Source of the DNA: an uncultured delta proteobacterium
GTDB taxonomy: Bacteria; Myxococcota_A; Polyangia; Polyangiales; Polyangiaceae
Length of the DNA: 64,000 bases
NCBI GenBank assembly: GCA_903906315.1
Contig: CAIVJW010000384.1
Span: 1 to 64,000 of the forward strand
Reading direction: 5' to 3'
The first letter of the stretch is position 1. The number at the start of each line of letters is the position of its first letter. Positions 6,544 to 34,370 of this stretch are shown here, one piece after another. The notes beneath the pieces are model-generated. The model saw only the letters and a list, made by a program, of their open reading frames with translations. It was not told the origin of the DNA and searched no databases. The position numbers were made by a program, and so were the translations under genes.

Positions 6544-8175
6544 CTACTCGGCGGCCTTCTTGGTGCCGACCAAGCGCTCGACCTTCTCGCACATCTGGCG
6601 GGCCCACGCCTCCGTCGTCGGCCGCCCGGAGATGATGAACCGACGGACCTCCGCACGAAGGGCGTCGGCCTTCGGGTTCTCGCTGTCGGGCGGGAGCCGG
6701 GTGAGAGCCTCGATCACCAGACGCGCACCCTCATCCAGCTCGATGAGAGCGTTCGCCTTCGGACTCACGTCGTACCTGTCGGCCTCGATGCCGAGGGCGT
6801 CGATCATCTCGTGGAGCTGCGCCAGAGCGCGCATCACGGTGACGTTCGGCAGAAGATGAAGGACCTCACGAGCCTCAGAAGCGATGGCCGTCAGAGCGCC
6901 CCTGACGGCGTCGAAGCTCTCGTGGTCGCGCCACTTGGCGATGTAGACGTCGGCGGGCTCCTCGTCCTCCGGGGCGTCGTCCCCGTCGTCGTCCTCGTCC
7001 TCGTCCGGCTCCTCGTCCCCGTCGTCGTCCTCGGGCTCCTGGTCCCCGTCGCCATCGCCGTCCCCGGGGGCGTGATCGTCCTCGGGCTCGTCGTCGTCGG
7101 GCGGCTCCGTCGTCTCGGTGGGCTCGGACTCGCTCGGGGACTCGTCCGGTTCGGCGCCGTTGGTCGTGTCGTCGGCGACGAGCTTGTCGTCGTGATCGTC
7201 CGCGATGACTGGGTCGAGCGGCTCGACCTCCTCGACGGCCACGCCGCACGGCTCCCGCGTGCCGAGCACGATCGCCTCGACCTGCCTCTTCGTCTCGATC
7301 AGCGACCACTTCTCGTCGACGCAGAGGCGGGCGAGCCGGGCCCACTGCTCCTGGGGCGCCTTCTCGATCGCCGCCAGGTGCTCGGCCCGGTCACGCAGGA
7401 GGATGACGTTATACCGGTCAAGCTCGTCACGAACGGCCAGGAACACGCGAGCGCCCTTCCTGTAGCGGCTCAGGTTCGGCGGCTGGAGCCCGCAGCGGGC
7501 GGCGTAGTCCCGGACGGTGACGCCGACCTCCTCGGCCTTGATCGAGTGGAGGCCCTGTTCAAGGGCCGAGAGCGGCTCCTGAACGTTCGCCGAGGCGAGG
7601 TAGACGAGCGCCTCGGCGTCGGTGGCCTTGATGACGATCACCGGCATCTGCCGCATGCGGGCCTTCATGCCTGAGCCGAGCCGGGTGTTGCCCGAGAGGG
7701 TCTGGAAGCGCGCTCCGATCCGACGGACGACGAGCGGGTGATTGGGGCTCGCGCGACCATCCCGCTCCATCTGGGCGGCGAGGCTGTTGGAGACCTCGCT
7801 CTCGTGCGGGATGCGAGGGTTCATTGGGTGCGGGTCGATGAGGTCGATGTCGATCCACTGGACGGTGCCCTCGGCGACCGGCGCTACCGGGATCGGCGCC
7901 GGGCCCCTGCCGGTCGGCACCGGCGGCCTCATCGTCAGGGCATCCAGGGTGGCCTTCGCCGCCGGGTACGTCGCGAGGACATCCTGATGGCAGGAGAACT
8001 CCTCGTCCGGACCCTTGTTCCCCGAACGCTTGTACGCCACGTAGGCAGTAAGGAACGGCCGCAGGGTCTCGTTCGAGCTGTCCGTGACCGGCACGTTGCG
8101 GATGTGCGAGAGAGCCGTCGTGTAGGCCGACTTCAGCACCTCGTCGGTGACCGTCTCGGTGGCGTCGGCGCTCAC
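6544..8175 (-). CDS. ParB/RepB/Spo0J-family protein with acidic linker
   Basis: 543 aa from a GTG overlapping the TGA of the preceding gene (GTGA). Residues about 105-200 form a ParB N-terminal nuclease-like fold: IDLIDPHPMNPRIP, a HPLVVRR strand, LSGNTRLGSGMKA where CTP-binding ParBs have GERR, and a VQEPLSALEQ helix. An HTH region follows (VRDYAARCGLQPPNLSRYRKGARVF). Residues about 325-425 are almost all Asp/Glu/Pro/Gly, a disordered acidic linker, before a helical C-terminal domain. No ParA is present, so classical segregation is doubtful; plasmid maintenance or regulation is possible. A second ParB-like protein at 9933 shares the RYRKGARVF/RYMRGARVF region but is diverged. Confidence 0.85.
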   Translation of the reverse strand: MSADATETVTDEVLKSAYTTALSHIRNVPVTDSSNETLRPFLTAYVAYKRSGNKGPDEEFSCHQDVLATYPAAKATLDALTMRPPVPTGRGPAPIPVAPVAEGTVQWIDIDLIDPHPMNPRIPHESEVSNSLAAQMERDGRASPNHPLVVRRIGARFQTLSGNTRLGSGMKARMRQMPVIVIKATDAEALVYLASANVQEPLSALEQGLHSIKAEEVGVTVRDYAARCGLQPPNLSRYRKGARVFLAVRDELDRYNVILLRDRAEHLAAIEKAPQEQWARLARLCVDEKWSLIETKRQVEAIVLGTREPCGVAVEEVEPLDPVIADDHDDKLVADDTTNGAEPDESPSESEPTETTEPPDDDEPEDDHAPGDGDGDGDQEPEDDDGDEEPDEDEDDDGDDAPEDEEPADVYIAKWRDHESFDAVRGALTAIASEAREVLHLLPNVTVMRALAQLHEMIDALGIEADRYDVSPKANALIELDEGARLVIEALTRLPPDSENPKADALRAEVRRFIISGRPTTEAWARQMCEKVERLVGTKKAAE

Positions 8176-8384
8176 CTGCCACCCCCGATCCTGGAGCCGT
8201 TGGTGGCGGGCCTGTCGACCAGATCGCCGAGCGCCTGGGCGAGCGGATCGCAGTAGAGGTGGATCGCCGAGTCGATGATGTCCCCGACCGTGCGCGTCTC
8301 GATGGCCGCTTTGGTCCTGGCAAGCTGCAACGCTTGGGGGGAAATGGTCGTGTGCAGGTTCCTGAGCTTCGCGATACCGGGCAT
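8172..8384 (-). CDS. Small ribbon-helix-helix-like protein
   Basis: 70 aa, with a good AGGAGG ribosome-binding site just upstream of the ATG. The N-terminal strand LRNLHTTISPQALQLARTKA and the helix pair around IETRTVGDIIDSAIHLYC fit an RHH/CopG DNA-binding fold. It overlaps the ParB gene by four bases, so the two are probably translationally coupled. An 8-bp-arm dyad lies 18 bp upstream of its ATG and may be its operator. Confidence 0.65.
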   Translation of the reverse strand: MPGIAKLRNLHTTISPQALQLARTKAAIETRTVGDIIDSAIHLYCDPLAQALGDLVDRPATNGSRIGGGR

Positions 8385-8402
8385 ATGCCCCTCCTATGTG
8401 GA

Positions 8403-8429
8403 GGGCACCGACTGATGCGTGCGGTGCCC
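8403..8429. promoter_or_regulatory. Dyad upstream of the RHH-parB pair
   Basis: GGGCACCG (8403-8410) and CGGTGCCC (8422-8429), perfect 8-bp arms with an 11-bp spacer. The position suggests an operator for the RHH protein or a ParB site. Confidence 0.45.
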
Positions 8430-8470
8430 GGTCACTTAAGAACACCGGATGCACCCCCCGAACGCCCGAC

Positions 8471-8493
8471 AATCGACACCGGGGCGGTCGATT
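8471..8493. promoter_or_regulatory. Second dyad between resolvase and RHH genes
   Basis: AATCGAC (8471-8477) and GTCGATT (8487-8493), perfect 7-bp arms with a 9-bp spacer. A candidate parS-like or recombination site; no direct evidence. Confidence 0.35.
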
Positions 8494-8615: not shown

Positions 8616-9224
8616 TCAAGCCTCGCCCGAGGGCACTTCCGGGAGGGGTTCTCGAAGGGCCGCGTGCAGCGTGCCGACACCGACTCCGAGCGCCTTGGCG
8701 ACGGCTGCGTAGCTCTGCCCCTCGGCCCGAAGCTGGTGGGCCCGTTCAAGATCAACCCGGACCCGCGGTCGGCCGATCCTCCGTCCACGTCGACGAGCGG
8801 CATCAAGACCGGCCTTGACCCTCGACCGGATCAACTCACGTTCCAGCTCCGCCACGGCCGCGATGATCGAGAACGTGAACCGGCCGGTCGGGGTCGAGGT
8901 GTCGATCGCGTCGTGCAGGCTCACGAAGTCGATCCCCAAAGAGTTGAACTCGTCGAGCGCGGTCACGAGGTGCTTCACCGACCTCGCGAAACGGTCGAAC
9001 TTCCAGCAGGCGACCACCGAGAACTTCCGGCGGCGAGCATCCCGCATCAGCTCATCGAGCTTGGGACGGCGGTCCTTGGCGCCCGAGACCCCGACGTCGA
9101 TGTACTCGGCAACGATCGTCCACCCGCGGTTCCGGGCGAACTCACGAAGCCCGTCGAGCTGCATCTCGTGGTGCTGCTCGGAGGTGGAGACGCGGGCGTA
9201 GACGGCTACCTTCTTGGCGTTCAT
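8616..9224 (-). CDS. Serine recombinase, resolvase/invertase family
   Basis: 202 aa. The catalytic serine is Ser13 in VYARVSTSEQ; the motifs DVGVSGAKDRRPKLDELM, CWKFDRFARS and GRFTFSIIAAVAELERE follow in the usual order. A short C-terminal HTH comes after RRRGRRIGRPR (ADLERAHQLRAEGQ-like helix, then AVAKALGVGVGTLH). These enzymes resolve cointegrates or invert segments through a serine-DNA intermediate. No transposase is next to it, so multimer resolution of the element is a reasonable role. The ATG at 9224 is preferred over an in-frame TTG at 9227. Confidence 0.93.
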   Translation of the reverse strand: MNAKKVAVYARVSTSEQHHEMQLDGLREFARNRGWTIVAEYIDVGVSGAKDRRPKLDELMRDARRRKFSVVACWKFDRFARSVKHLVTALDEFNSLGIDFVSLHDAIDTSTPTGRFTFSIIAAVAELERELIRSRVKAGLDAARRRGRRIGRPRVRVDLERAHQLRAEGQSYAAVAKALGVGVGTLHAALREPLPEVPSGEA

Positions 9225-9313
9225 CAAGGGCTACTACGCGGATTGCCGAACGCCTCAGCCAGAGGCGGCCCCAACCCAACCATTCGAGCCCCGTACCGTA
9301 TTGCGCCATCCGG

Positions 9314-9652: not shown

Positions 9653-9932
9653 CCACCTACTACGCCACCGGGGCCCAGGTTCAGCATCGGAGCGGAGCCC
9701 ACAAAAATAATTTCGCAGGCACTTCAGCTACTTGGCTCCTCACGGACAACTATTTTCTGGGTACCAGGCTGAAACCGACCACCCGCTGGAATAGTAGAGG
9801 CACGAACCCAGCGCCTGGGCCGACCCCAGGAAGACTGCGAAGCTGCCGACTCACAAAGGCATTTAGGCGGGGCAAACCCCGCGCTGCCTGATGAGGATCG
9901 GTGGACGCGGTGCTGGGCGGAGGTATGCCCAC
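9653..9932. other. Divergent control region with hairpin before the second parB-like gene
   Basis: Includes the most A/T-rich patches in this part of the window (around 9703-9716 and 9750-9757). A perfect GCGGGG-CAAA-CCCCGC hairpin lies at 9867-9882. A GGGCGGAGG Shine-Dalgarno at 9915-9923 precedes the ATG at 9933. The hairpin could be regulatory or part of a partition or origin site. Confidence 0.35.
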
Positions 9933-11678
9933 ATGAACGCACACGTTGCCACCGCGACCGCTCTCTCCACGTCCGACTCGTCGCCCACGCCCGAGTCCCT
10001 CACCGTCACGACCGACTCCGCCCCGGTGTCGGCTCCCACCGCCACCACCCGTCTCGCAGAGGAGGCCGCCGCCTGGCTCCGCTTCTGCCAGCAGGTCGTG
10101 GACAAGGGCTTCGTGACGCACGAGGAGCGGACCACGGTACTCGCCGGGTTGGCGGAGCGTTCCTGGCGGCGCCTGCTGAACATGGATGGGACGCGGTTCG
10201 ATCGGTTCGAGGATCTCTGTGCCGCTCCGCGTCCCTTCGGGCTCGCCCGCCCTCATGCCGAGGTGAACGAGATCGTGCGCCAGGTCCGCACCTGCCCGCC
10301 CCCGCCGGAGAGCGGAACCGGGCTGCGGGCTCACGCGACGGAGGCCGGAGGGACCGACCTGATCGAGCCGTCCCCGAGTTCGGTGCCGATCGAGCCGCAG
10401 TCTGCGGTGCGTTCCAAGGCGAAGGCCGGTGCGGGGGCGACTCCGGCCCTGCCCATCTCGACGCAGCAGAAGGCGTCGAAGGTCGGAAAGGGGGCCGCCG
10501 CGCGCGAGGCCAAGAAGAACGGGGCGGCGGTCGACGAGAACGCCTCCCAGCGGCTCGAAGCTCTTGCGATCGATGTCCTCGATGCCCACCCGAGGAACCC
10601 CCGCCTGGCGCCCCACCCGGAGACGCTCAGCGGCCTCGTCGAGCAGATGAAGAAGGCGGGCGCGTTCGATCGGACGCACGCCATCAAGGTTCGCGTCAAG
10701 GGCGGCGGCCGGTACGAGATCCTCTCGGGCCACCAGCGCGTCGAGGCAGCCCGGCAGGCCGAGCTGGCCACCGTGTGGGCCTTCGTGGTCGAGGCCACCG
10801 ACGACGAGGCCTACATGATGCTCATCCTCGCCAACACGCAGGAGCCGCCCAGCAAGCTCGAAGTTGCGCTTCATGCGCTCGGGGTCGTCGACGAGAAGTC
10901 CAAGGACTCGATCGCCGGATACGCGCGGAAGGTCGGCCTCCAGCGCGAGAACCTCTCCCGGTACATGCGGGGCGCCCGCGTCTTCGAGGCCATCCGGCAG
11001 GACATCGGCCCGGATAACGCGATGCTCCTCCGCGACCGCGCCGACCACCTTGCCCGGATCGCCAAGGCTCCCAAGGGCGACTGGGCCCCGCTCGCCACGC
11101 AGCTCGCGAAGGAGCAGTGGTCGATCAAGGACACCGAGGTCGCGGTCAAGCAGACCGGTGCGACGGGGGGCCACGACGATCGGCAGACACGCCCGAGCGA
11201 CACCAAGGTCGGGGTCGAGGCCATGCGGGGCGCCACGGGAGCGGACGACAGGGAGCCTTCGGGGGACCCCGACCACGAGCACCTGGTTCAGCTCCTCACC
11301 CGGCACGCGGAGACGCTCCGCGAGATCCAGACGTTCCTCGGCGGGATGCCGGCCGCGCCGCTCATGAAGGCGATCAAGCCCTTCGTGGAGGGCTACGTGA
11401 CGACGGGGGTGGCCCCGACGATCGACACGGCCGACCTTCTCGCACGCCGGGCGGTCTACGGACGGGTCACGAAGCTTCAGGCCGAAGCGATCGTCGATCC
11501 CGAGGTTGCCGCCGCAACCCAGGCGCTCAACCCGGAGGGCGCACTCCGGAACCCCGACCTCACGGTCGCACATGTGGATCGTCTGGCCGCCTCGTTCGAC
11601 GAGATGGTCGCCCCCGTCGACGAGACGAGCCCGATCGAGCAGCTCCTCGGCGTTGGTGGCACGGAGGTGGCCGAGTGA
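9933..11678 (+). CDS. Second ParB-family protein
   Basis: 581 aa. A long N-terminal region (1-200) contains a helical segment with WLRFCQQVVDKGFV and a low-complexity Ala/Pro/Lys linker. The ParB fold spans about 205-310: IDVLDAHPRNPRLAPHPETL, LSGHQRVEAARQAEL (in place of GERR), and LANTQEPPSKLEV. HTH region: IAGYARKVGLQRENLSRYMR. The C-terminal third is helical. The DnaN-like gene overlaps its stop by four bases (GTGA), tying the two products together. ATG 9933 has a good ribosome-binding site; an upstream ATG at 9891 does not. No ParA is nearby. Confidence 0.85.
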   Translation: MNAHVATATALSTSDSSPTPESLTVTTDSAPVSAPTATTRLAEEAAAWLRFCQQVVDKGFVTHEERTTVLAGLAERSWRRLLNMDGTRFDRFEDLCAAPRPFGLARPHAEVNEIVRQVRTCPPPPESGTGLRAHATEAGGTDLIEPSPSSVPIEPQSAVRSKAKAGAGATPALPISTQQKASKVGKGAAAREAKKNGAAVDENASQRLEALAIDVLDAHPRNPRLAPHPETLSGLVEQMKKAGAFDRTHAIKVRVKGGGRYEILSGHQRVEAARQAELATVWAFVVEATDDEAYMMLILANTQEPPSKLEVALHALGVVDEKSKDSIAGYARKVGLQRENLSRYMRGARVFEAIRQDIGPDNAMLLRDRADHLARIAKAPKGDWAPLATQLAKEQWSIKDTEVAVKQTGATGGHDDRQTRPSDTKVGVEAMRGATGADDREPSGDPDHEHLVQLLTRHAETLREIQTFLGGMPAAPLMKAIKPFVEGYVTTGVAPTIDTADLLARRAVYGRVTKLQAEAIVDPEVAAATQALNPEGALRNPDLTVAHVDRLAASFDEMVAPVDETSPIEQLLGVGGTEVAE

Positions 11679-13045
11679 GCGCCGACATGTCGGCCGACAA
11701 GGTGGCCTCGCTCTCGGGCACGAGCGAGGTCACCCAGTCTGACCGGGCGCGGCTGACGCCCCCCTTGCGGGCGCCCGAGCCCACGATCCTGACCGCGCGT
11801 GCCGGCGACCTCGTGACGGCGTTCAAGTTGGCTTCGACCGTCTTGGACGCGAACAGTCGGCGCGGAGCCAAGGACGGGGCGGCCTACGTCATCGAGGCCG
11901 GAACCGATGGCGCCTTCGTGATCGTGAGGGGCCGACAGGTCACGGTCCGCGTGCCGATCAAGGATGCGAGGGTCCGGCGGCCCGGACTGATCTCGATCAA
12001 CCGGAAGCGCCTCGCGGAGTCGTGGCGGCACCTCAAGGGCACCACCTCGATCCACATCGCGTGCATCCACAAGAGCGAGGCGCAGGACGTCGTTGTTTGC
12101 ACCGCCGACTCCGGCGCGGTCACCAACGACCCAGCCCCCCGCGTCGTCCGGTTCGACACGCGGGCGCTCTTCGAGGGCTTCTCGCAGGAGGGCCCGTGCC
12201 AGGCACTCGTGCTCTCGCTGGCGCTCGCGGTAGCCGTCGGGTTCGTGTCCACGGACCCCGCAGAGGTACGCGGTCGGTTCAAGGGCGTGACCGTTCGGAG
12301 CCGCTGCGTCGTGGCCTCGGACGGGGTACGTGGCGTCATCATTCGGTCGGACGCGCTCCCCGATGTCACGGGCTGGCTCTCGCCCGAGGCCTGCAAGGCG
12401 CTCGTGCCCCTCCTTCATCGCGTACGGGGGGATGCTTCGGTCGCCGTGAGCGGGGGTCGAATCCAAGTCCGGTCCCACTCGACCGATGCCACGGTGGTCA
12501 CGACGTTCACCGAGGAGGATCTACTCGGCAAGCTGCATTCGCCAGGAAGCGCAGCGGATCTGAGCATCGAGGCCGACGTTGCGGAAGTCGATCGAGTGAT
12601 GCGTTTCCTCGCGGTCGGGCACACGCGGGCGGTCGGGTTCCAGCTTGACCCGACGAACGGGCGGGTCCTGGTCGCCAACACCGGGCGGCCGGGCGAGGGG
12701 GGCGTCGTGCCGGTCGAGGGTGCCGGCGCGACCGGGAGCCCAGAGTGCATCCCGACCTTCCCGATGAAGGACCTTGCCATCGTCGCCGACGGGCTACGGG
12801 GAGAGCGGGTCTGGATCGACTTCAGGCGCCTTGGCAACCAAGTGCTCGTGTCGTCGCGCGAGACTGTCCTGGTTCGTCGGGGTAGCGGCAGCACGAAGGC
12901 GGTCACGGACGGCATCAGGATCGACCGCTTCGTGGTCGTTCCGATCAACCCGTCCTCCGCCTCCCTTCCTGAGCCGCCGCCTCGTTCCCATGTGTCGTGC
13001 GTGGGCGCTCCGCGGCACGAAGCCGTGGGGCCGGGGTGTCCGTGA
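11675..13045 (+). CDS. DnaN-like sliding-clamp homologue
   Basis: 456 aa from GTG overlapping the parB-like TGA. It has the three-domain layout of the polymerase III beta clamp. Domain 1 begins near DLVTAFKLASTVLDANSRRG and contains VPIKDARVRRPGLISINRKR. Domain 2 has VVASDGVRGVIIRSDALPD and a LSPEACKALVPLL helix (compare ATDGHRLA and the LKELLKLL helix in DnaN). Domain 3 has GRVLVANTGRPGEGG and FPMKDLAIVADGLRGERVWI. Overall identity looks low, and the C-terminal MPVRM-type cleft residues are not preserved (tail VGAPRHEAVGPGCP). It may be an element-encoded clamp that recruits replication factors or marks element DNA. A fold prediction would settle it. Confidence 0.6.
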   Translation: MSADMSADKVASLSGTSEVTQSDRARLTPPLRAPEPTILTARAGDLVTAFKLASTVLDANSRRGAKDGAAYVIEAGTDGAFVIVRGRQVTVRVPIKDARVRRPGLISINRKRLAESWRHLKGTTSIHIACIHKSEAQDVVVCTADSGAVTNDPAPRVVRFDTRALFEGFSQEGPCQALVLSLALAVAVGFVSTDPAEVRGRFKGVTVRSRCVVASDGVRGVIIRSDALPDVTGWLSPEACKALVPLLHRVRGDASVAVSGGRIQVRSHSTDATVVTTFTEEDLLGKLHSPGSAADLSIEADVAEVDRVMRFLAVGHTRAVGFQLDPTNGRVLVANTGRPGEGGVVPVEGAGATGSPECIPTFPMKDLAIVADGLRGERVWIDFRRLGNQVLVSSRETVLVRRGSGSTKAVTDGIRIDRFVVVPINPSSASLPEPPPRSHVSCVGAPRHEAVGPGCP

Positions 13046-13214: not shown

Positions 13215-13838
13215 TCATGTCGTCCCCCGCGCGGTACCGGGCGCCCGGTCAAGCCCGGGAGGGCCTGACGCGGTGCAGCAGGCCGGGAAGCTCGCTGCGC
13301 TCATCCTGGCCGTCAGGGCCGCCATGAACGCGGAGGCCGTCTCAGCAGGGGCCACCTCACGGACGGTCTCCCGGACGGCGCCCACCAACATCCCGATGAT
13401 CGTCTCGATGTGCTCGGGCCGGATGGTGCCGCCCTCGCGGCGGAGCTGCTCGCGAGCTGCCACGAGATCGGCAAGGCGACCGAGGGCATTGACCCGGCGA
13501 CCAGAGATCCGCTCGGCCTCAGGGCGACCCTCCCGTTGGGCCCTCCGCCGTTCCCACGCGAGCGAGGCGGCCTCCCGGGCCACCCCATCCATTGCCCGCT
13601 GGATGATGTCGAGCGGGGCGTCGGTCTCAGCTCGAACCAGCTCGTCCGCGCGGATTGCGATATCCGCAGCCCGACCGACCGCCTGGTGGTAGGCGCGCTC
13701 ATCGATCGTCGGTGCGCATTCGAGCCTGCGAGGTCGGCCAGGACGACGACGCACAAGGGGCGTGGGGCCGTCTTCGAGCTGCCGCAGGGGGATCACAACG
13801 GCGGCCAGTGGGCCCTGGGGCATGTGGGGCTTGGTCAT
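13215..13838 (-). CDS. Hypothetical helical protein, 207 aa
   Basis: Not recognised. The ATG at 13838 is chosen because the longer frame upstream is an antisense shadow of the replication gene. After a Pro/Arg-rich N-terminus (RRRPGRPRRLE), the sequence is mostly amphipathic helix: QAVGRAADIAIRADELVRAE, WERRRAQREGRPEAER, RVNALGRLADLVAAREQLRR, HIETIIGMLVGAVRETVREV. It lies 121 bp downstream of the rep gene on the same strand and may be a replication or copy-control partner. Confidence 0.55.
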   Translation of the reverse strand: MTKPHMPQGPLAAVVIPLRQLEDGPTPLVRRRPGRPRRLECAPTIDERAYHQAVGRAADIAIRADELVRAETDAPLDIIQRAMDGVAREAASLAWERRRAQREGRPEAERISGRRVNALGRLADLVAAREQLRREGGTIRPEHIETIIGMLVGAVRETVREVAPAETASAFMAALTARMSAASFPACCTASGPPGLDRAPGTARGTT

Positions 13839-13959
13839 CGCACTAGGAGCGACGCGACAAGTAGATCCTGAGTTCGGGGACGGATTACTGAGGTCTAGCA
13901 CGCAGCGTGGTCGAGCGGTCGTGAGCTTGATTTTCGGGGGACCACGGGCCCTCGGGACG

Positions 13960-15303
13960 TCACGCGGTGAGCTGCCGGAGGATCGCTTCGATGTCGAGTT
14001 CGGAGGCGGATGCGGGGCGGCCTTCAGCGAGGCCGGGGCCCGCGTGGGCCGCCTCCGTAGAGTCGCTCTCCTCATCCTCCTCGTCGGGGTCACGGGACTC
14101 GTCGTCGGTGAACTCGTCGAACGAGATGTCCTCGGCCTTCCAAGGGGGCGTGACGAAGGCCACGGCTGGGTCGAAGTCCGGGAGGTCGGGCGGGAACGTG
14201 TCGGGCAAGTACGGGCTGAGGGCCTGGGCAATCTCCGTGATCGCCGCGCCCATCGTGCTGAACGGCGAGGCATCGGGGGGAACGCCGAGCCTGCGTAGTT
14301 CGCCAAGGGCCTCACGAACGGCCGACACGGACTTGCCGGTCAGCTCTGCGGCCTCGTTGATGGGATACGCCGAGGCCACGAAGTACAGGGCGATGAGGTC
14401 GTTGAGGCGCTGTGGGGTCAGCGTCTTCCTGCGGCCAAGGGTAAGGTCGCCAGCGGAGAGACGCGATTGGCCCTCCCGAAGCTTTCCCACGACCTCGCGG
14501 ACGTGGGAGGCGAACAGGGTACGATCGGCGCCACTCTGGGGATCACCGAGGCGAAGGCGATAGGCCTCACGGGCAAGCACCCAGCCGTCGATCCTCGGGT
14601 CGCACATCAGCGCGAGCGTGGGGAGGTGGTCGCCGATCCGCGTGCCGAAGAGGCGCCTGAGCCCCTGCGCTTGCCTCAGCGTGACCTCGAAGCGGAGTGA
14701 GTGCTTGGCGTGTTCGACAAGCTGCTCGATCCTCGTGCGGTCGGCCGCGTTCTTCTTCGCCTTGAGGTGGGACTGAAGCTCCAGCCCCTTCACGTAGAAC
14801 TTCGCGCTCAGCGACTTCGTGTACCAGGCGATGGTTGAAGTCGTGGGTGAGCCGTGCGTGTCGATCCTCGATCGGTACCGGCGCTGGATGCCGAGGCAAC
14901 CGTGGGCGACCCGGAGCGGGTCGGAGACGTGAAGGTCTACGGCATGAGAGCTGCGGATGACGGCCCAGCGCTCAACCGGGAAGCGGACGGCAAGCTCGGA
15001 GCCGACGGCAGATGTTGGGAGGTGAAGGGTCTGGGCGATGCCCTGCCGGAGGCGGCGGAGCCCGAGCTGCTCGACGTTGTCGATCGGCATGAGCGGGTAG
15101 TTCACGGGGTGGTCGTGAAGCCACCGGGGGACGGAGAGCCGGACCGAGACGACGCCGGTCTCGGCTACGGAGACGAACAACCCGTTCGGACCGGACGTGC
15201 CCCAACGACGTGGCGCGCGAGACGGCGTGTCGAGGGGCATCATCCAGTCGGGGGGCCCGTTGATGCCCTCGACACGGCCCGCGAAGGTCAGGTCATCTAG
15301 CAT
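13960..15303 (-). CDS. Replication protein, filamentous-phage gene II/X-type
   Basis: 447 aa from ATG 15303 (GAGG seven bases upstream). The middle of the protein carries the hallmarks of the phage/plasmid gene II/X replication family: a strand with VDLHVSDPLR, an IAWYTKSLSAKFYVKGLELQ segment containing the YxKGxEL signature, and LRFEVTLRQAQGLRRLF. The family nicks double-strand DNA to start rolling-circle replication. The C-terminal third is a putative HTH (AAELTGKSVSAVREALGELR) followed by a Pro/Asp/Glu-rich tail. An Asp/Glu stretch near residue 415 echoes the acidic linker of the neighbouring ParB. The upstream 233 bp are a candidate origin. Confidence 0.72.
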   Translation of the reverse strand: MLDDLTFAGRVEGINGPPDWMMPLDTPSRAPRRWGTSGPNGLFVSVAETGVVSVRLSVPRWLHDHPVNYPLMPIDNVEQLGLRRLRQGIAQTLHLPTSAVGSELAVRFPVERWAVIRSSHAVDLHVSDPLRVAHGCLGIQRRYRSRIDTHGSPTTSTIAWYTKSLSAKFYVKGLELQSHLKAKKNAADRTRIEQLVEHAKHSLRFEVTLRQAQGLRRLFGTRIGDHLPTLALMCDPRIDGWVLAREAYRLRLGDPQSGADRTLFASHVREVVGKLREGQSRLSAGDLTLGRRKTLTPQRLNDLIALYFVASAYPINEAAELTGKSVSAVREALGELRRLGVPPDASPFSTMGAAITEIAQALSPYLPDTFPPDLPDFDPAVAFVTPPWKAEDISFDEFTDDESRDPDEEDEESDSTEAAHAGPGLAEGRPASASELDIEAILRQLTA

Positions 15304-15536
15304 CGGAGGCCTCAAACGCTACGAATCCCGTATGTGTGCGGGGGTGGGGTGATCGGATGATGTAGAAAACAAGCTCAATTCGACTCCGATAGGCGTCGTC
15401 GGCATCCGTTGCTGAGGCAAAGGTGTCCTTATTATTAGGGCCGAGCCGAAGGAGGGGGCGCCAGGCCACGCTGACGCCCCCCCTCGACAGGCGACCGAAC
15501 GTCTGCTGGTTCTTCGGAGCCATGGCTGCCGCGCCC
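15304..15536. other. Candidate replication origin upstream of the gene II-like rep
   Basis: The gap between the rep ATG and the next leftward gene is A/T-richer than its surroundings. It contains CCTTATTATTAGGG (15427-15440) and a hairpin GGGGGCG (15454-15460) / CGCCCCC (15475-15481). Rolling-circle origins often combine an A/T-rich nick site with a hairpin near rep. The hairpin could instead be the terminator of the gene ending at 15537. Confidence 0.35.
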
Positions 15537-15899
15537 CTACACCAGTAGCTCGGCGTGGTGCCCGAAAACCTGCGGGGCCCGCCCGTACCGGACGGTGAGG
15601 CGACCGCTCGACGTCGAGAGGAGCCGCCTGATCTCTGCGGCCTGACCCCCAAGCGTCCGAGTGCGGTCGGTCACCATGCGAACCACGGCGGCGTCGCCAA
15701 CCACGATGTCGATGGCCTGCGACTTCTTCGTTGCGACCGTCACGAGGGCGAGGAGGGCGCGCACGATGGCATCGGCGTGGCTGCTGGACTCCCAGTGGTT
15801 CCTGACGAGCGCCGGCTCCCCCGATGGCGTCCGACAGGCGATCTGGCCGATCGAGACTTCGGGGTCGAGGTCGCGGGCGAAGACGAACGCGGTGGCCAT
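15537..15899 (-). CDS. Hypothetical protein with an RNase H-like pattern
   Basis: 120 aa, ATG overlapping the stop of the upstream RHH gene (TGATG). The order of a beta-hairpin (ATAFVFARDLDPEVSIGQIA), a helix (SSHADAIVRALLALVTVA) and a strand ending in an acidic residue (AIDIVVGDAAVVRMVTD) loosely recalls the RNase H fold, but the catalytic acids are not convincingly present. I would call it unknown. The coupling with an RHH protein mirrors the layout at 8172-8384. Confidence 0.6.
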   Translation of the reverse strand: MATAFVFARDLDPEVSIGQIACRTPSGEPALVRNHWESSSHADAIVRALLALVTVATKKSQAIDIVVGDAAVVRMVTDRTRTLGGQAAEIRRLLSTSSGRLTVRYGRAPQVFGHHAELLV

Positions 15900-16105
15900 C
15901 ACGGCCTCGCCTCGGCGACATGCCGGACTGGAGCGACGGGCTCGGGCAGGGACTCACCCATCTCGTGGTACCGAAGGACGAGGAGCACGCCCTCGCGCAT
16001 CAGCTCCTGGCGGGAGAGGCCGGTGTCGGCCGCGAGATGGGCGAGGCGGCGGGCCCATTCGGTGGGGATCGTGGAACGGATGTTACGGACTTGCAGGTCG
16101 CTCAT
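15899..16105 (-). CDS. Ribbon-helix-helix DNA-binding protein
   Basis: 68 aa with a textbook AGGAGG seven bases before the ATG. The N-terminal strand QVRNIRSTIPTEWARRLAHL and the helix-turn-helix LAADTGLSRQELMREGVLLVL fit the CopG/MetJ-type RHH fold. Probably a repressor of its own operon; a dyad at 16145-16161 lies in its promoter region. Coupled to the next gene by a TGATG overlap. Confidence 0.75.
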   Translation of the reverse strand: MSDLQVRNIRSTIPTEWARRLAHLAADTGLSRQELMREGVLLVLRYHEMGESLPEPVAPVRHVAEARP

Positions 16106-24205: not shown

Positions 24206-27025
24206 CTACACCTTGAAGACCTTCATCACCTCGTCGCCGAGGTGGTTGATCACCTTCACCGCGATGCGCCCGTGCGGCGGCCGTACGAACGGTCGCGAGG
24301 TGTCGCTGTTCAGGCTGGCCCACGCCTCGGCGTCGATCTCCGCCTTCAACGTCGTCTTGAGGGCCCCGTACGGGTCGTTCGCCCCGAGGAAGTAGGCGTG
24401 GCGCACGAAGAACGACTCCTCGTTGTAGTCGGTGTCGATGAACCAGCAGGCGATGCCGCCGGGCCCACTGCTCTCGATCTCTCCGGTCTGCGGCTTGAAC
24501 ACGTCGACGCCGTTGACCTTCACCCGGAGCGCGCCGCCCTTCTCCGTGATGAGGTCGATGTCGGGCTCCCCGAAGACCACGAACAGGTTGCCCTTGCCCG
24601 TGTTCTTGAGGTTCTCGGACATGTGCAGGTCGGCGTTCATGCGGGCCTTGAGCACCGGGAGCCGGCCGAGCTTGTTGAACTCCGTCGTGTGGGCCTCGTA
24701 GTTGAAGGCGCAAGCGACGAGCACATCGAAGCCGGCCTCCGCGGCCTCTCGGGCGGCGGCGACCAAATCGGTCCGCTGGACGGTGCCGAACTCGGGCCCG
24801 ATGAAGATGGCGGCGCGCCGCTCGACGTCGGCCTCCAGATAGCGCCCCTCGGCACAGACCAGATCCCCTGGCCACCGGACGAGGCTCGTGAAGCCGATCT
24901 TGTCGGCCTTGTGCGCTTGCTGCACTCCGGCGACGCGCAGGTTCTCAAGGACCATGTCGGGGAACGAGAGCTTCGCCCCGTACTTCTCGGTCCGCTCGGC
25001 CACCCGGTCGATGAGGTCGCCGTTCTCGTCGACCGCCACCATCCGGTGGGGGCTCAGGCTCTCGACCGTGAACGGCCCGGCGACGCGGACCTTCTTCTTG
25101 TCCTCGTAGGGCTTGTCGTAGAGGTACTCGAACTCGGCCTTCGCGGCGATCGAGGCGTCGATCTCCTTCTGGCGACCAATGCGCGCCTGCCACCAGCCGG
25201 CATGGAGCTTCTTGGCGGGCTCGGGCCACGCGTTGTCGGCTTCGCGAGGAACCTCCCACTCCTGCCACTTCTTCTTGAGGGTGGCGTTCAGCTTCTCGCG
25301 GAGGGGCTCCAGGACGCCCTGCCACTTCTCCCAGAGCACGTCGATCTCGGTGTTGTTGGCGATCGACTTGAGGGTGATGTGGGGAACCCGCTCGTTGACG
25401 AACCCATGACGGATGTTGCCCTGGACCGGCTGCGAGCTTGGGGCGGTACGGGCGACTTCCGCCTCCTTGACCTGCCCTTCCTTCGAGTCGGCGAGCAGGT
25501 AGAACGGGTAGCGAGCCCCCATGACGCGGGCTCGTGCTAGGGCCAGGGCGACGCGGGACGTATCGATCGTGATCCACCGCCGGCCCCATTGCTCCGCGAC
25601 GTGGGCTGCGGTGCCCGAACCGCACGTGGGATCGAGCACGAGGTCACCCGGATCCGTCACCATCAAGATGCAGCGCTCGACAACCTTGCCCGACGTCTGC
25701 ACGACGTACACCTTGTCCATCGCGCTACCAGATTGCGTGTCGACCCAAAGGTCGGTGACTGGGAATACTGGAAAGTCGCCGTGAAATCGAACATAGTTCA
25801 GGCTGTTGCCCGCGAGTTCGATTCTCGATGCTGCTTGCAGCCTCTTCATCCCGAGTTCGTTCGTCTTCCAGCGAGACGACATCGATGGTCGCACGGTCGC
25901 GCCATGATGCGACACAGCGAACCAACTTGCCGCTCCCTCGCCTTTCGCGCGCCCCACAGATTGACTTGTCAGGGTTTGAAGCCGGAAGACCCTATTTGCC
26001 TGTCCAGATGCCACGGTCGTGCCGACTTCACTCGACCTCAGGCGCGTCCGCAGACCGTTCTCATGCTGGAGAAATGTGTAGGTCGCGTCGCCATCCTCCC
26101 CCAGACGGCGATCCAGGTAGCACTGACGGTACTTCAGGTGCTCGACATCCTTCGCGTACATCAAAATGAAGTCTGTGGTTCCCGGGAGGTGCTCGCTCGT
26201 CGCTCCACTGGTCTTCTTCACTGAAATCTGCGCGACGCAGTTTGCAGGCCCAAATACCTCATCGAGAACAACGCGCACTCGATGGACATTCTCGTCGCCG
26301 ATCTGCACGAAGAGCGCGCCGGTAGTTGCGAGTAGGTCACGAGCCACCGTGAGGCGATCGCGCAGGTACGTCAGGTAGCTGTGTATGCCGTCTCGCCAAG
26401 TGTCGCGAAACGCCTTCACCTGCTCGGGTTCACGAGTGATGTGGCCCGCGTTGCCGTCCTTCACGTCGCGGCTGGTCGTCGACCACTGGAAGTTCGAGTT
26501 GAACTTGATGCCGTACGGGGGGTCGAAGTAGATGCACTGGACCTTCCCCCGAAGCCCTTCGCGCTCGGCTAGGCTCGCCATCACCTGGAGCGAGTCGCCC
26601 AGGATCATGCGGTTCGCCCAGTTCTGATCGTGCTGGTAAAACTCGGTCTTGTCGGCGTCCTTGGGGATGCCGTTGAAGTCCCCGAACAGGTCGGCCTGGT
26701 GCCCCGACTGCTGTGACCGCCCACCCTTCGTCTGCCGCAGAAGCTCCTCGATCAGACTCTTCGGGTGGACCTTCTCCTGGATGTAGAGGGGCGGCGCGTG
26801 GACAACGAGGTCGCTCCAGTCCTGCTCGTCCTTGCCTCGCCAGACGAGTTGCGGGTCGAGGTCCGGGTTGCGCGGGTAGCGAAGCTCCTTCGGCTTCAGG
26901 TCTTCACCCCGGAGCACCGGCTGGAACTCGGCCGTGGGGATGTTCTTCCGCTTGTCGCTCGGGTGCCGGATGGCTTCGACGGTCTTCGCGGTGCTCGGCG
27001 TGCTGGTCGTCTTCTTCGGAGGCAT
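24206..27025 (-). CDS. Type III-like Mod DNA methyltransferase (beta class)
   Basis: 939 aa. Catalytic motif IV FDPPYG (167-172) precedes SAM motif I DPTCGSGT (465-472), the order of beta-class amino-methyltransferases such as type III Mod. The region between them (TYLRDRLTVARDLLATTGAL, FVQIGDENVH, TTDFILMYAKD) is typical. The long C-terminal part (500-939) probably holds the target-recognition and coupling regions. It is longer than classical Mod (about 650 aa), as usual for the branch paired with BPTD_3080-type Res proteins. Two bases separate its start from the Res stop. Confidence 0.92.
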   Translation of the reverse strand: MPPKKTTSTPSTAKTVEAIRHPSDKRKNIPTAEFQPVLRGEDLKPKELRYPRNPDLDPQLVWRGKDEQDWSDLVVHAPPLYIQEKVHPKSLIEELLRQTKGGRSQQSGHQADLFGDFNGIPKDADKTEFYQHDQNWANRMILGDSLQVMASLAEREGLRGKVQCIYFDPPYGIKFNSNFQWSTTSRDVKDGNAGHITREPEQVKAFRDTWRDGIHSYLTYLRDRLTVARDLLATTGALFVQIGDENVHRVRVVLDEVFGPANCVAQISVKKTSGATSEHLPGTTDFILMYAKDVEHLKYRQCYLDRRLGEDGDATYTFLQHENGLRTRLRSSEVGTTVASGQANRVFRLQTLTSQSVGRAKGEGAASWFAVSHHGATVRPSMSSRWKTNELGMKRLQAASRIELAGNSLNYVRFHGDFPVFPVTDLWVDTQSGSAMDKVYVVQTSGKVVERCILMVTDPGDLVLDPTCGSGTAAHVAEQWGRRWITIDTSRVALALARARVMGARYPFYLLADSKEGQVKEAEVARTAPSSQPVQGNIRHGFVNERVPHITLKSIANNTEIDVLWEKWQGVLEPLREKLNATLKKKWQEWEVPREADNAWPEPAKKLHAGWWQARIGRQKEIDASIAAKAEFEYLYDKPYEDKKKVRVAGPFTVESLSPHRMVAVDENGDLIDRVAERTEKYGAKLSFPDMVLENLRVAGVQQAHKADKIGFTSLVRWPGDLVCAEGRYLEADVERRAAIFIGPEFGTVQRTDLVAAAREAAEAGFDVLVACAFNYEAHTTEFNKLGRLPVLKARMNADLHMSENLKNTGKGNLFVVFGEPDIDLITEKGGALRVKVNGVDVFKPQTGEIESSGPGGIACWFIDTDYNEESFFVRHAYFLGANDPYGALKTTLKAEIDAEAWASLNSDTSRPFVRPPHGRIAVKVINHLGDEVMKVFKV

Positions 27026-27027
27026 GG

Positions 27028-30000
27028 CTAGTTCTTCTCGGTCGACGGCGATGCGGTCGTGGTTGCGAGTAGGTCGGCGAACGCCTTCTCGACCTTCGCC
27101 TCGAAGTCGGCCTCGATGCGGTAGATCTCCGTGAACTCCGCGAAGGCCCACCGGCCGTGCGTCCCGAGGTGGTTCACGCCGGGCACCCAATACGTATCCA
27201 TCGTCGCCTTTTTCTCTTTCGCGTCCTCGCGGCGGTAGCCCTTGATCTCGACGATCAGGTGGAGCGGGTCGTCGGGGCCGTGACCGTCGTCCACGAGGAC
27301 GATGAAGTCCGGCAAGTACTTCCGGGCCACGGAGCCGAAGCGGTAGGGCACTTCGAGGCCGAGATTCTGGTTCTTGACGTAGGCCAACACCTTCGGGTGA
27401 GCCTCGGCGACGCGGCAGAACTCGCCTTCCCAATCGCTATCGAGGATCACCCAGTTGATGTGGCAGCGGTCGGCTCGCGGCTGCCACCGCAGCGTCTTCG
27501 ACGTGTTGAAGCGGACCGTACTCGTCGATCCCGTCGAGTTGTACGGGTCGAGGAGCGCCTTTACCGGCTTGCTCCCGAGGAACGACGCGGTGATGGCCCG
27601 CGTGATCCGCTCGCAGGCGACGTCGGCAAGCTGCTCGTACATCAGCAGCGCCGGGTACGTCCCGCCCTTGCACACGAGGCAGGTGTCGAGCCACTCCTTG
27701 GTGATGCGCTTCAACTGCCCGAAGAGGTGGAGCTTCGGCTCTTCCCCTGGGTCGCGCCACTTCGTGTAGAGCAGCCGGTGCGTCAGGTGGAACACGAGCG
27801 TCGACGGGCGCATGTCGGCCAGGTGGTCCAGGCTCATGTCGGCTGTCTCGCCGATGATGCCGGCGTTCTGCGTGACCGACGGGCCGACGAGGTCGGGGGT
27901 TAGCTCCAGGATCGAGTCGTCGCTGAAGGTGGCGGTCAGCCGCTCCTCGGGTAGGTCGACGCGGTAGCCGTCGACGCGAGGGAAGTGGATCTCCAGCGCG
28001 TCTCGGTCGGGCCGCACGGCCTTGACGACGATGGTCTCTCGTGGCGGTTGCGGCGGGGCCGGGACCGGCTTGGCTGTGAAGTCGAAGGGGATGCCGAACA
28101 CGTCGGCGTACTCGACGTTGAACAACCCCTCCTCGTTGAGGTCGTACGACTGCCGGCGGAGCGCGCGACCGATCACCTGCTCACAGAGGAGCTGCGTGCC
28201 GAAGGCCCGGATGCCGAGGACGTGCGTGACCGTGTTAGCGTCCCACCCCTCCGTGAGCATCGAGACGGACACGACGCAACGGATGCCGCCGCCGAGAGTG
28301 CCGGGCTTGCCGACGGTGTTCATCACCTCCCGGAGAAGCTCCTGGTCGGTGATGTCCTCGGCCCGGTGGGCATCCCCCGTCCGTTCGACCATCTCGCGCC
28401 GGAACCGCTCGATCTCGGTGGCCGCCATCTTGCGGAAGTTGTCGTCGAGGGCGTCCCCCGCTTCGAGCTGCTCGCTGTCGATGAGCAGCGTGTGGGGCCG
28501 GGGCAGGGGGTTGCCGTGCTCGTCGGTGTTCCTGAAGAGGGGCAGGCGCCCCGCTTCCGGCGTCTCGCTACCGTTGGCGTGTTTGCGGGTGAACCCGGAC
28601 ACGTAGTCGTAGACGAGCTTCGAGATCGCCGTGTTCTGGCAGACGATGATGAAGCACGGCGGCTCCTTGATGTCGCGCTCCGCCCAGAGCTTGAAGGTCT
28701 TCTCGTAGTGGCCGTAGAGCGCCGAGAGCGCCGTCTGGAGTCGAGCGGGGAGCTTGAGCGGGTCGAGGTCTTCGCCGCCCGCCCGCCCTTTCTTGGGCAT
28801 GTCGGCGCGGATGTGCTCCCAAAGCGTTCGGAACATCGGCATCTCGCTGCCTGAGATGTTCTCGGCGACCGGCACGCGGGGGAGCTTCACGATCCCGCAC
28901 TCGATCGCATCCATGAGGGAGAAGTCGCTCATGGTCCACGGGAACAGCGTGCCTTCGGCGTAGCCGGAGCCGCTCAAGAAGAACGGCGTCGCGGACAGGT
29001 CCAGGATGCGGCCGACCCCGAGCTTCCGGGTCACGGCTTCGAGGCCCGCGATCCACAGTCGCGCCGCCTCGTTGTTCTTCTCGGCTTCCTTCCGCTCGTC
29101 GCCCTTGAGGTCTTCGTCGTCGGGCTCTTCGGGCTTCTCACGGTAGCAGTGGTGCGCCTCGTCGTTGATGACGAGGATGTTCTTCATCCCCATGAGGTCG
29201 GGCATGACCCGCTGGATCATCTGCCCTTCGGTCTCCAGCGTGTCTAAGTCGTCCCCGACCCTTCCCTTGAGAAGGGCGCGGCCTCCGGCCGAAAGCTCGA
29301 CCCGCTCCCTGAGCTTGAAGGCATGGAAGTTCGTGATGACGATCTTCGCCCGTTGCACGTCTTCGAGCATGTCGTTCGGGACAAGCTCGCGGGTGGAGTA
29401 GTAGTTGTCGGGGTCGTTCGGCTGGAGGACGCGCAGCCGGTCCTTGATCGTAAGGCCCGGCGTGCAGACGAGAAACCCACGGGTGAAGGTCTTGCTGCCC
29501 GGTCGACGTACCGCGTTCACCGTCTGCCAGGCGATGAGCATCGCCATCACGGTCGTCTTCCCGGCCCCCGTGGCGAGCTTCAGGGCGAGCCGCATCAAGC
29601 CCGGGTTGGCATCCCGGTTCGCCGCCTCCAGTAGCCCGAGCAGGGGCTTGCCGTGCTTGGAGTTCGGGGCGACCTCGGTCAGCCAGATGGCCGTCTCCAC
29701 CGCCTCGACCTGGCAGAAGAACGGCCGGAGGCCGCTGTACTTGTGGCTTCGCCAGTGTTGAAGGAGGCGAGCGGTCTCGGGCGTAACCTGCCAGTGACTC
29801 GGGTTGGGGATCGATCGCCACGCTTCTACGTGACCGCGCACCTGGTTGATGATGCCGGTCGTGTCGTACTGCTGCTCCTTCGTCGACAGGCCCTTGCCCT
29901 CGTCGAAGACCATCTCCTCCTGAACCGCCGTCCGACGCTTCTTCGGCTTGGGGATCGGCGTGATGAACTCGGCCTTGCGCCGCGCCTCGATGATCTTCTG

Positions 30001-30117
30001 CGTTGGTTGCCCGGTCTTGTCGAGTTCCCAGTGGCGCCCCGGCCGCTCGTAGGGCGAGTTGAGGATCGGGTGCGAGAAGAACGGGTTCTCGTCGGCGGGG
30101 GGCGTGCTGAGCGGCAT
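27028..30117 (-). CDS. Type III-like restriction subunit Res (helicase plus PD-(D/E)XK nuclease)
   Basis: 1029 aa. SF2 motifs: LATGAGKT (181-188), VINDEAHH (316-323), ILDLSATPFF, then a GIRCVVSVSMLTEGWDANTV block and QVIGRALRR. A C-terminal nuclease has PD at 936-937 and E957-x-K959 in VEIKGYR, the PD-(D/E)XK signature. It matches the BPTD_3080-like Res family and should cut DNA lacking methylation by the adjacent Mod. First gene of a leftward operon; a good promoter (30153-30181) lies upstream. Confidence 0.92.
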   Translation of the reverse strand: MPLSTPPADENPFFSHPILNSPYERPGRHWELDKTGQPTQKIIEARRKAEFITPIPKPKKRRTAVQEEMVFDEGKGLSTKEQQYDTTGIINQVRGHVEAWRSIPNPSHWQVTPETARLLQHWRSHKYSGLRPFFCQVEAVETAIWLTEVAPNSKHGKPLLGLLEAANRDANPGLMRLALKLATGAGKTTVMAMLIAWQTVNAVRRPGSKTFTRGFLVCTPGLTIKDRLRVLQPNDPDNYYSTRELVPNDMLEDVQRAKIVITNFHAFKLRERVELSAGGRALLKGRVGDDLDTLETEGQMIQRVMPDLMGMKNILVINDEAHHCYREKPEEPDDEDLKGDERKEAEKNNEAARLWIAGLEAVTRKLGVGRILDLSATPFFLSGSGYAEGTLFPWTMSDFSLMDAIECGIVKLPRVPVAENISGSEMPMFRTLWEHIRADMPKKGRAGGEDLDPLKLPARLQTALSALYGHYEKTFKLWAERDIKEPPCFIIVCQNTAISKLVYDYVSGFTRKHANGSETPEAGRLPLFRNTDEHGNPLPRPHTLLIDSEQLEAGDALDDNFRKMAATEIERFRREMVERTGDAHRAEDITDQELLREVMNTVGKPGTLGGGIRCVVSVSMLTEGWDANTVTHVLGIRAFGTQLLCEQVIGRALRRQSYDLNEEGLFNVEYADVFGIPFDFTAKPVPAPPQPPRETIVVKAVRPDRDALEIHFPRVDGYRVDLPEERLTATFSDDSILELTPDLVGPSVTQNAGIIGETADMSLDHLADMRPSTLVFHLTHRLLYTKWRDPGEEPKLHLFGQLKRITKEWLDTCLVCKGGTYPALLMYEQLADVACERITRAITASFLGSKPVKALLDPYNSTGSTSTVRFNTSKTLRWQPRADRCHINWVILDSDWEGEFCRVAEAHPKVLAYVKNQNLGLEVPYRFGSVARKYLPDFIVLVDDGHGPDDPLHLIVEIKGYRREDAKEKKATMDTYWVPGVNHLGTHGRWAFAEFTEIYRIEADFEAKVEKAFADLLATTTASPSTEKN

Positions 30118-31598: not shown

Positions 31599-32162
31599 AT
31601 GAACGGCTCCTTGAAGGTCTTGGCGGTGCTCTCGGTCGTGGCGCTCATGTCGGGGTGCGCCGACAAGGCGCAGCCTTCGTTCGACGAGTGCGCCAAAGCG
31701 GAGTCGGGGAAGGACTGGGCGAAGGCCGTTCTGGCGTGTGAGGAGGCGGTGAAGCTTGGCCCGGAGTCGAAGGCAGGGAAGGCCGCCGCCGAGAAGCTGC
31801 CCGCCCTGAACGCCGAGGCGAAAGCGGCGGAAGCCAAGGCGAAGGCCGACGCGGAAGCCAAGGCGAAGGCCGACGCGGAGGCCCAAGCGGCAGGGGCGAA
31901 GGCGCGGGCCGAGAGGCAGGCGGCAGCAGCGGCAGCCCAAGAGGCCAACCTCGCCGCCTTGAAGAAGAAGATCCACACGTCGAGCCTTCCAGCCAACATG
32001 GACTTCGAGTCTGACAAGTGCGTTTCGGGGGGGAAACCTCCTCACGGATTGGAGTTCACGGGCGGCACCTACGCAGAAAACGGGCAGGTGGCACTGGCGC
32101 GAGGATGTGTCCCCGCCCACTACGGCACCGGCAGCACTGACAACAACTACTGCTGCCCGTAG
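31599..32162 (+). CDS. Lipoprotein with Ala/Lys/Glu coiled coil
   Basis: 187 aa. ATG 31599 (six bases after GGAGG) is preferred to the ATG at 31593. The signal peptide ends VVALMSGC with the lipobox Cys at about residue 20. A short TPR-like helix pair (FDECAKAESGKDWAKAVLAC) is followed by a highly repetitive coiled coil (EAKAKADAEAKAKADAEAQA) and a Cys-rich C-terminus (two CxxG-type turns, ending NYCCP). A secreted or surface-anchored structural protein is likely; no enzyme motif. Confidence 0.8.
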   Translation: MNGSLKVLAVLSVVALMSGCADKAQPSFDECAKAESGKDWAKAVLACEEAVKLGPESKAGKAAAEKLPALNAEAKAAEAKAKADAEAKAKADAEAQAAGAKARAERQAAAAAAQEANLAALKKKIHTSSLPANMDFESDKCVSGGKPPHGLEFTGGTYAENGQVALARGCVPAHYGTGSTDNNYCCP

Positions 32163-33755: not shown

Positions 33756-34370
33756 GTGAACCAGAAGCACGATCAGTGGCTGAAGCCGGGTGCGGCTCCG
33801 CGTACCATAGGAGTGAGCACCGCTAGAATTTCGACGAGCGCGGTAGAGGACGTGTCGCTCGACGACCCCTTGCCGTTCGACAAGGACGACGACAAGCCCG
33901 AGCCCGAGCACCCGACGAAGGTGTGGGTGCTTTGCGCGCCCGAGAACGTGCCGAAGTACGGGCTCGACTACGCGACCCCCGACGAGCTGGGCAGGCGGTT
34001 TGCGCAGTCCAAGGTCGCGAACGATCCTGCCCCGAACCCTGTGCCGCACGCAGCGGCCGAGAGGCCCGGTGCGGTCCGCCTGGAGTTCGCGACCCGAGAG
34101 GAGTTCGTCGCCTTCGTCGCCGAGCACGCGCAGGAGCAGGCGGAGCGCGTCTACATGACCGTCTCCGAGTACGCGAAGTACCGGGGCCTCGCGAAGCGGA
34201 CCATCGAGAGCCGCATCCTCGAAGGGATGCCGCTCGAAGGGCGAAGCAAGCACCGACGCGTCCACGTCGAACACGCGGACGAGTGGTTCCGCGCTCAGCG
34301 CCCTGGTGCTGTGCCGCAGGCCAAGGCCAACGCTCTGCGTGCTGTCGCCGCTCTCCGGAGCAAGCCGTGA
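33756..34370 (+). CDS. Excisionase-like DNA-binding protein
   Basis: 204 aa from GTG. The C-terminal part has an excisionase-like winged helix: YMTVSEYAKYRGLAKRTIES, then GRSKHRRVHVEHADEWFRAQ. An acidic, Pro-rich N-terminus (DDPLPFDKDDDKPEPEHP) is of unknown use. The stop is overlapped by the integrase GTG (GTGA), the usual coupling of xis and int, so it probably controls excision direction. Confidence 0.75.
   Translation: MNQKHDQWLKPGAAPRTIGVSTARISTSAVEDVSLDDPLPFDKDDDKPEPEHPTKVWVLCAPENVPKYGLDYATPDELGRRFAQSKVANDPAPNPVPHAAAERPGAVRLEFATREEFVAFVAEHAQEQAERVYMTVSEYAKYRGLAKRTIESRILEGMPLEGRSKHRRVHVEHADEWFRAQRPGAVPQAKANALRAVAALRSKP

Follow-up and report, generated by a model that had tools for sequence, protein, structure and literature searches.

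Introduction

Sliding clamps are hubs that select the enzymes acting on DNA, and the locus described here raises the question of whether a mobile element encodes a clamp of its own, with unusual partners, together with a ParB-like protein. The open reading frame (ORF) at 11675-13045 on contig CAIVJW010000384.1 of an uncultured delta proteobacterium overlaps a ParB-like gene at its start. The window is the whole stretch analysed, bases 1-64000 of this 66,021-base contig, in a genome of 8.8 Mb. As judged from profile comparisons, the product of this ORF is a very remote DnaN-type clamp homolog.

Gene pair and coding signal

9891-11678, plus strand: orphan ParB-like protein of 595 amino acids, with ParB_N at residues 221-317 (window 10551-10841; Pfam ParB_N)
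11663-11669, plus strand: Shine-Dalgarno-like GGAGGTG within the 3' end of the ParB-like gene (sequence reading)
11675-11678, plus strand: GTGA overlap of the clamp start and the ParB-like stop (sequence reading)
11675-13045, plus strand: divergent DnaN-type (beta) clamp homolog of 456 amino acids with a GTG start (coding signal, HHalign)
Within 11675-13045, plus strand: clamp-like core at approximately residues 23-394 and C-terminal tail at approximately residues 425-456 (HHalign)

The ORF 11675-13045 is coding. Its guanine-plus-cytosine (GC) content at codon positions 1, 2 and 3 was 0.69, 0.53 and 0.86, and its codon log-likelihood was +0.28 per codon, with at most +0.09 in the remaining five frames. 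The codon score of the 3' stretch 12872-13045 (approximately 170 bases) was near zero (-0.03), and the tail is therefore the least certain part of the protein. The ParB-like ORF stops with TGA at 11676-11678 and the GTG of the clamp ORF begins at 11675, giving an overlap of 4 bases; GGAGG at 11663-11667 is spaced 7 nt from this GTG, and an alternative start, ATG at 11687, is 19 nt from GGAGG. An earlier sequence-only reading of this DNA had described the overlap and proposed translational coupling of the two genes, and both the overlap and an arrangement suited to coupling were confirmed. The gene arrangement suggests that the clamp homolog and the ParB-like protein are probably made from one mRNA via translational coupling.

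Profile evidence for a clamp

The clamp assignment was based on a broad profile built from 80 clamps gathered from viral contigs. In HHalign, the product matched this profile at E 5e-5 (score 41.7) over 344 columns, covering residues 23-394 in a single collinear three-domain match, and the controls reached at most 23.5 (144 unrelated proteins) and 21.3 (60 shuffles). The broad profile was chosen after a narrow one had failed, so its E-values carry some selection, and because of this later choice further controls and a separate 12-sequence clamp set were run. These 12 divergent clamps of related genomes, none of them from the viral set, gave a score of 31.3 over 290 columns, with a control maximum of 22.2 (100 proteins and 60 shuffles). 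With a 111-sequence clamp set, the score was 33.5 over 342 columns, which none of 144 unrelated proteins and none of 300 shuffles reached (maximum 24.7, and no control attaining 300 columns). Random 40-sequence halves of the viral clamps were aligned over 329-342 columns in six of eight trials, over 270 in one and over 161 in one. A joint profile of 92 clamps (80 viral and 12 from related genomes) gave Prob 86.9 and E 4.2e-6; it excluded two partial sequences (L163, L165), a fragment (L164), weak matches resembling unrelated proteins (L156-L158), the ordinary-looking second clamp L046, host-type clamps and the N-terminal half of L153. The ParB profile, used as a negative control against the ORF, gave E 0.32. 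Overall, three tandem clamp domains were alignable end to end over 323-344 columns (E 5e-5 to 4.2e-6) with clearly lower controls, in agreement with the earlier claim that the motifs line up with the three DnaN domains. In both low-confidence AlphaFold models, the first part is ordered b-a-bbb-a-bb, as is a clamp domain, with one additional short strand before the second helix in the second model.

Several results weigh against this assignment. The ORF had no match in Pfam (E<=10), PHROGs or PADLOC, no clamp model of NCBIfam matched it, a PDB sequence search with it found no clamp, and it fell below every threshold of PF00712, PF02767 and PF02768, which is a matter of recognition rather than a property of the protein. 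The narrow DnaN profile, built on 34 clamp genes taken from related genomes, gave a local HHalign E of 0.13 over 22 columns and a global E of 0.53. With a position-specific scoring matrix (PSSM) from this profile, Z was 1.3 over the whole length, -0.7 locally and 0.07-2.41 in glocal mode, and the HMMER E of 0.016 was not convincing. The score of the most conserved clamp window, in domain 2, was attained by 486-798 of 1000 shuffles, and no per-domain test with the narrow profile was convincing; taken alone, the narrow-profile tests would have led to rejection of the clamp reading. Single-sequence AlphaFold modelling was poor, with a mean predicted local distance difference test (pLDDT) of 40.4 and 40.9 in the two models, and Foldseek on both found no match at E<=0.001 and no clamp among the best 50 listed for each. 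Pairwise phmmer against single clamps gave E 8.5e-5, almost no improvement on the 1.0e-4 of the best control, and was not used as proof. The net charge is +8, compared with -6, -13 and -26 in the three clamps counted, and no polymerase or clamp loader was recognised among the nearby genes scanned with general libraries.

Close relatives of the clamp ORF were found in none of the genome contigs, viral contigs, plasmids and phages searched, and since there is no close relative there is also no sign of selection on the clamp surface. Searches of 317 and 377 genomes, in sets that overlap, matched the own genome alone among the best 4-5 candidates per genome at E<=0.001, and the contigs of that genome contained no second copy. 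A 41-residue match with an internal stop (59 genomes, E 0.005) and two matches to the tail (7 genomes, E 0.095 and 0.30) were discarded as chance.

Retained and lost motifs

In the alignment with the viral clamps, 27 of 73 conserved columns were kept. They include, in domain 1, parts of the stretch around DARVRRPGLISINRKRLAE that precedes the second helix and, in domain 2, the S-D-G-x-R (DG.R). TDGHRL reads SDGVRG, with H and L gone, the FPDY..IP loop is missing, and the C-terminus reads ...FVVVPINPSS followed by a proline-rich tail, in place of the ...VVMPMR(I/L) of clamps. The replacement of the normal C-terminal motif, noted previously, was thus correct: V-P-I-N and a tail stand where M-P-M-R is expected. 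In clamps, these motifs belong to the cleft that receives polymerases and the clamp loader; by alignment, the partner surface is changed and a new tail is added. Given these losses, ordinary use by the host DNA polymerase III is improbable. The motifs of a host-type processivity factor (TDGHRL, FPDY..IP and the MPMR end) were looked for in the ORF and not found, and because these partner motifs are what marks DnaN, that name is unsuitable for the product, although any function it has would be clamp-like. An ordinary dnaN is present once in the genome, on a different contig.

The ParB-like genes

The ParB-like product of 9891-11678 carries ParB_N well above the Pfam cut-off (E 8.9e-11, 42.1 bits, cut-off 26.3), and its TIGR00180 score was below cut-off (48.6 bits, cut-off 58.45). 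HTH_ParB was not among the domains listed for it, and the ParA-binding motif [LFI]G[KR]G[LFI] is absent from the protein. No deviant Walker A motif (KGG.GK[ST]) occurred in the six frames of the window, no parA was seen, and no parS-like site with <=3 mismatches to the consensus was found in the window. These three absences weaken the link to partition proper. Box II reads GHQRVEAA, where the usual ParB consensus is GERR.RA. Two further genes lie upstream of the pair:

6544-8472, minus strand: second ParB-like protein, sharing 41% identity with the first across residues 222-420 of the latter (library scan and pairwise comparison)
8616-9227, minus strand: serine resolvase/invertase between the two ParB-like genes (Pfam Resolvase E 1.5e-48)

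Beside the relatives of the ParB-like protein in two other genomes (G056 C123 and G243 C374), there was no clamp, and the next gene in G243 is MCM-like. Two bacterial MCM-like AAA+ genes were observed, one next to an orphan ParB of G243 (L010:2506-4485, in G243 C374; Pfam MCM 25.7 bits, above the cut-off of 23.3) and one next to the Rep cassette of G056 C75 (L055:11495-13702; 21.0 bits, below it).

Replication cassette and element context

Downstream of the clamp ORF and facing it, a minus-strand cassette extends from 16105 to approximately 13.2 kb in the order RHH (ribbon-helix-helix) gene, small gene, Rep-like gene, small gene. These genes and a recombinase gene further along are as follows:

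15899-16105, minus strand: RHH regulator heading the Rep cassette (Pfam RHH_1 21.7 bits, cut-off 20.5)
15537-15902, minus strand: small gene upstream of Rep (position equal to that of a gene in the G056 cassette)
13960-15315, minus strand: Rep-like protein of 451 amino acids (PHROG 702 'replication protein', E 1.1e-8)
13299-13754, minus strand: small gene lying downstream of Rep; it is the part of ORF 13215-14315 that is conserved (homolog in G056 C75)
33923-35692: tyrosine recombinase (library scan)

Homologs of the RHH gene (48% over 54 amino acids, at the same place), the Rep-like gene and the last small gene (blastp 37% over 153 amino acids, E 1.2e-20; phmmer E 2.3e-22) stand in the same order in G056 C75, and 15537-15902 had no blastp match with its counterpart there at E<=1e-4. 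The Rep-like protein scored 19.7 bits with Pfam Phage_CRI, below the cut-off of 21.7; relatives of it are encoded in 3 of the 317 genomes searched, its own not counted (G056, G242 and G272). Because this conserved cassette lies beside it, the ParB-clamp pair belongs to a replication/maintenance region. As to a plasmid or an integrated element, the Rep-like protein and cassette are common to G056 C75, and neither ends nor a circular contig were found. The earlier proposal of a mobile element stands by context, given two ParB-like genes, the resolvase, the Rep-like protein, the RHH regulator, the tyrosine recombinase and the defence genes. The search for element boundaries found none, and the two ends of the contig do not overlap each other.

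Other genes in the window include a type III restriction-modification pair at 24206-30117 (methyltransferase 1462.8 bits in PADLOC, and a Res-like helicase), a GmrSD-type restriction gene with DISARM-type DrmB and DrmA after it (37210-45662), and two HigB-type toxin genes (438-1118 and 2122-2948), each with an adjoining helix-turn-helix gene, the second of which rests on a weak domain match (E 0.057). A large protein at 60437-63760 is approximately 50% identical over 687 amino acids to the neighbour of a second clamp in G041 (L043). The sole exact direct repeat of >=22 bases in the contig lies at 31827-31872, with copies 24 bases apart.

Clamps on mobile elements and beside ParB genes

The sequence-only reading had considered a clamp on a mobile element unusual, which was not borne out: at E<=1e-5, 308 of 72,556 plasmid records matched the L112 clamp and 82 of 50,697 phage records matched the L104 clamp, although a few of the 308 reach several megabases and could represent replicons of chromosome size. 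Clamp matches occurred in 173 of 183 genomes of the same order, more than one being listed in 23 of these (own genome included), some of them fragments. The other 22 were re-read and 15 stretches fetched, and they contained second clamps of all grades. Divergent second clamps were seen in L151, L152, L154, L155 and L159-L162, some beside phage-type recombination genes; clamp-model matches were partial or below cut-off in L151, L152, L154 and L155, and L154 and L155 fell under all Pfam clamp cut-offs. An 865-amino-acid protein (L153:4348-6945) had a clamp-profile match of 80 bits, which by visual inspection falls in the C-terminal half; Pfam gave no hit for this protein, which may be a clamp fusion. 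A 114-amino-acid product (L164:4952-5296, 31.7 bits) matches part of a clamp and is perhaps a fragment or broken gene.

ParB profile hits were found in 7 of the 80 viral clamp loci (L112, L086, L098, L099, L113, L116 and L104). In a Pfam scan of L112, L098, L086, L113 and L104, ParB_N was above cut-off in L112, L098 and L086, fused to a methyltransferase in the latter two, and below it in L113; L099 and L116 equal L098 and L113 in scores and lengths. In L104, a DUF6551 gene ends 1 base before the clamp. Among the 15 fetched stretches, only L162 (G196 C192) had a ParB gene before its clamp, at 271 bases. Directly adjacent ParB_N-clamp pairs were therefore seen in L112, in L162 and at 9891-13045 of the window. 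The combination, also claimed to be unusual, proved uncommon but not unique, given the ParB_N+HTH_ParB proteins of L112 and L162. In open-licence literature searched by title and abstract start, no ParB-clamp gene pair was reported.

Discussion

We favour, with a probability of about 0.5, a far-diverged element clamp with a changed partner surface that is co-expressed with an orphan ParB-like protein. In this model, a far-diverged member of the DnaN/beta-clamp superfamily would occupy the replication/maintenance region of a plasmid-like or integrated element, and its core, by homology, may close as a ring on DNA. Having lost the cleft motifs and gained a tail, the clamp would probably give no ordinary service to host DNA polymerase III and would probably work with a specialised partner that belongs to the element. 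The likeliest role of the ParB-like protein is to bind the DNA of the element, regulating or marking it, and the gene pair hints at a possible direct contact between the two proteins.

The two genes may simply be transcribed together, with no contact between their products, and we rate this about equal in likelihood to a partnership of any kind. In that case, to which we give somewhat less than an even chance, the ParB-like protein would regulate its own expression or act in a partition-like way, and the clamp gene would merely follow it as one more replication gene, much as genes are ordered in phage replication modules; this explanation denies only ParB-clamp contact and is compatible with much of the favoured reading. 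The ParB-like genes of L113, L098 and L086, near clamps without being adjacent, fit this explanation, as do 8 annotated plasmid and phage dnaN regions that name no ParB beside dnaN; the 4-base overlap in the window, the ParB_N+HTH_ParB genes directly preceding the clamps of L112 and L162, and the L104 DUF6551 gene stopping 1 base before its clamp argue for a closer relation. The clamp might also be a decoy or modulator, forming mixed or empty rings that block host replication factors or shield the element rather than confer processivity. Its cleft-region motifs are gone while the core stays, and one normal host dnaN is available as a target; but the gene accompanies Rep and ParB genes and not an anti-host set, and loss of the cleft could equally abolish binding of host factors, so we consider this unlikely.

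It is quite unlikely that the ORF is decaying, having once encoded an element clamp, with selection now relaxed and cotranscription alone keeping it in place. The absence of close relatives in any collection searched, the 27 of 73 conserved columns and the final 170 bases without coding signal would be expected of decay, whereas 1.37 kb open without a stop, an overall third-position GC of 0.86 and an intact Shine-Dalgarno sequence and start would not. That the product is an unrelated alpha-beta protein, clamp-like by composition, would explain the failure of the curated models, the PDB search, the single-sequence AlphaFold models and the first, narrow profile; the broad-profile match over approximately 340 columns, clearly apart from shuffles and unrelated proteins, makes this very improbable. 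A long shot is a two-clamp module, in which the orphan ParB would act as a nucleotide-gated clamp that recognises the element and loads or anchors a polymerase-type ring lacking the host cleft and private to the element. If this were true, the element would mark and replicate its own DNA with a clamp unusable by the host machinery.

Returning to the far-diverged, co-expressed element clamp, clamps on plasmids and phages are already known, and what is new here is a far-diverged one overlapping an orphan ParB gene. By sequence comparison it is the far end of a gradient of mobile-element clamps. The retention of the core without the usual partner surface, in a clamp encoded together with an orphan ParB, points to the evolution of private clamps, with partners of a new kind, on mobile elements. 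The gradient of second clamps in related genomes lies partly under the Pfam thresholds, so that annotation pipelines would miss such clamps. If the ParB-like protein does help to position the clamp, this would be a new way of loading a DNA ring.

Comparison with known systems

The window clamp resembles host DnaN (PF00712/PF02767/PF02768) in three tandem domains in order over approximately 340 alignable columns, in the DG.R of domain 2 and in the domain-1 stretch that leads up to the second helix. It differs in falling under all curated thresholds, in SDGVRG for TDGHRL, in having no FPDY..IP loop, in ending with V-P-I-N and a tail instead of M-P-M-R, and in its positive net charge. With the DnaN proteins of phages and plasmids (among them Rhizobium phage RHph_TM3_3_14B, Aurantimonas phage AmM-1 and plasmid Rms139), it shares a clamp gene on a mobile element, but in the 8 such regions viewed the clamp gene carries the annotation dnaN or processivity factor, and no adjacent ParB is annotated. 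The viral contig L112 and the prophage-like contig L162 share with the window a ParB gene followed by a same-strand clamp gene. In contrast, their ParBs carry ParB_N and HTH_ParB, the L162 clamp is recognisable by Pfam, the genes are 200 and 271 bases apart with no overlap, and the remaining module is unlike that of the window.

The ParB-like protein itself is comparable to the orphan ParB-CTPase-fold proteins of mobile elements (PMC12704722): both have ParB_N, no ParA motif or parA neighbour, and a mobile-element setting. In the text of that paper, 'DNA polymerase III' is absent and 'sliding clamp' occurs once; domain fusions and nucleoside triphosphate (NTP) specificity are reported there for these orphans, and DUF6551 is named among the domains to which the ParB-CTPase fold is fused in phages (PMC12704722).

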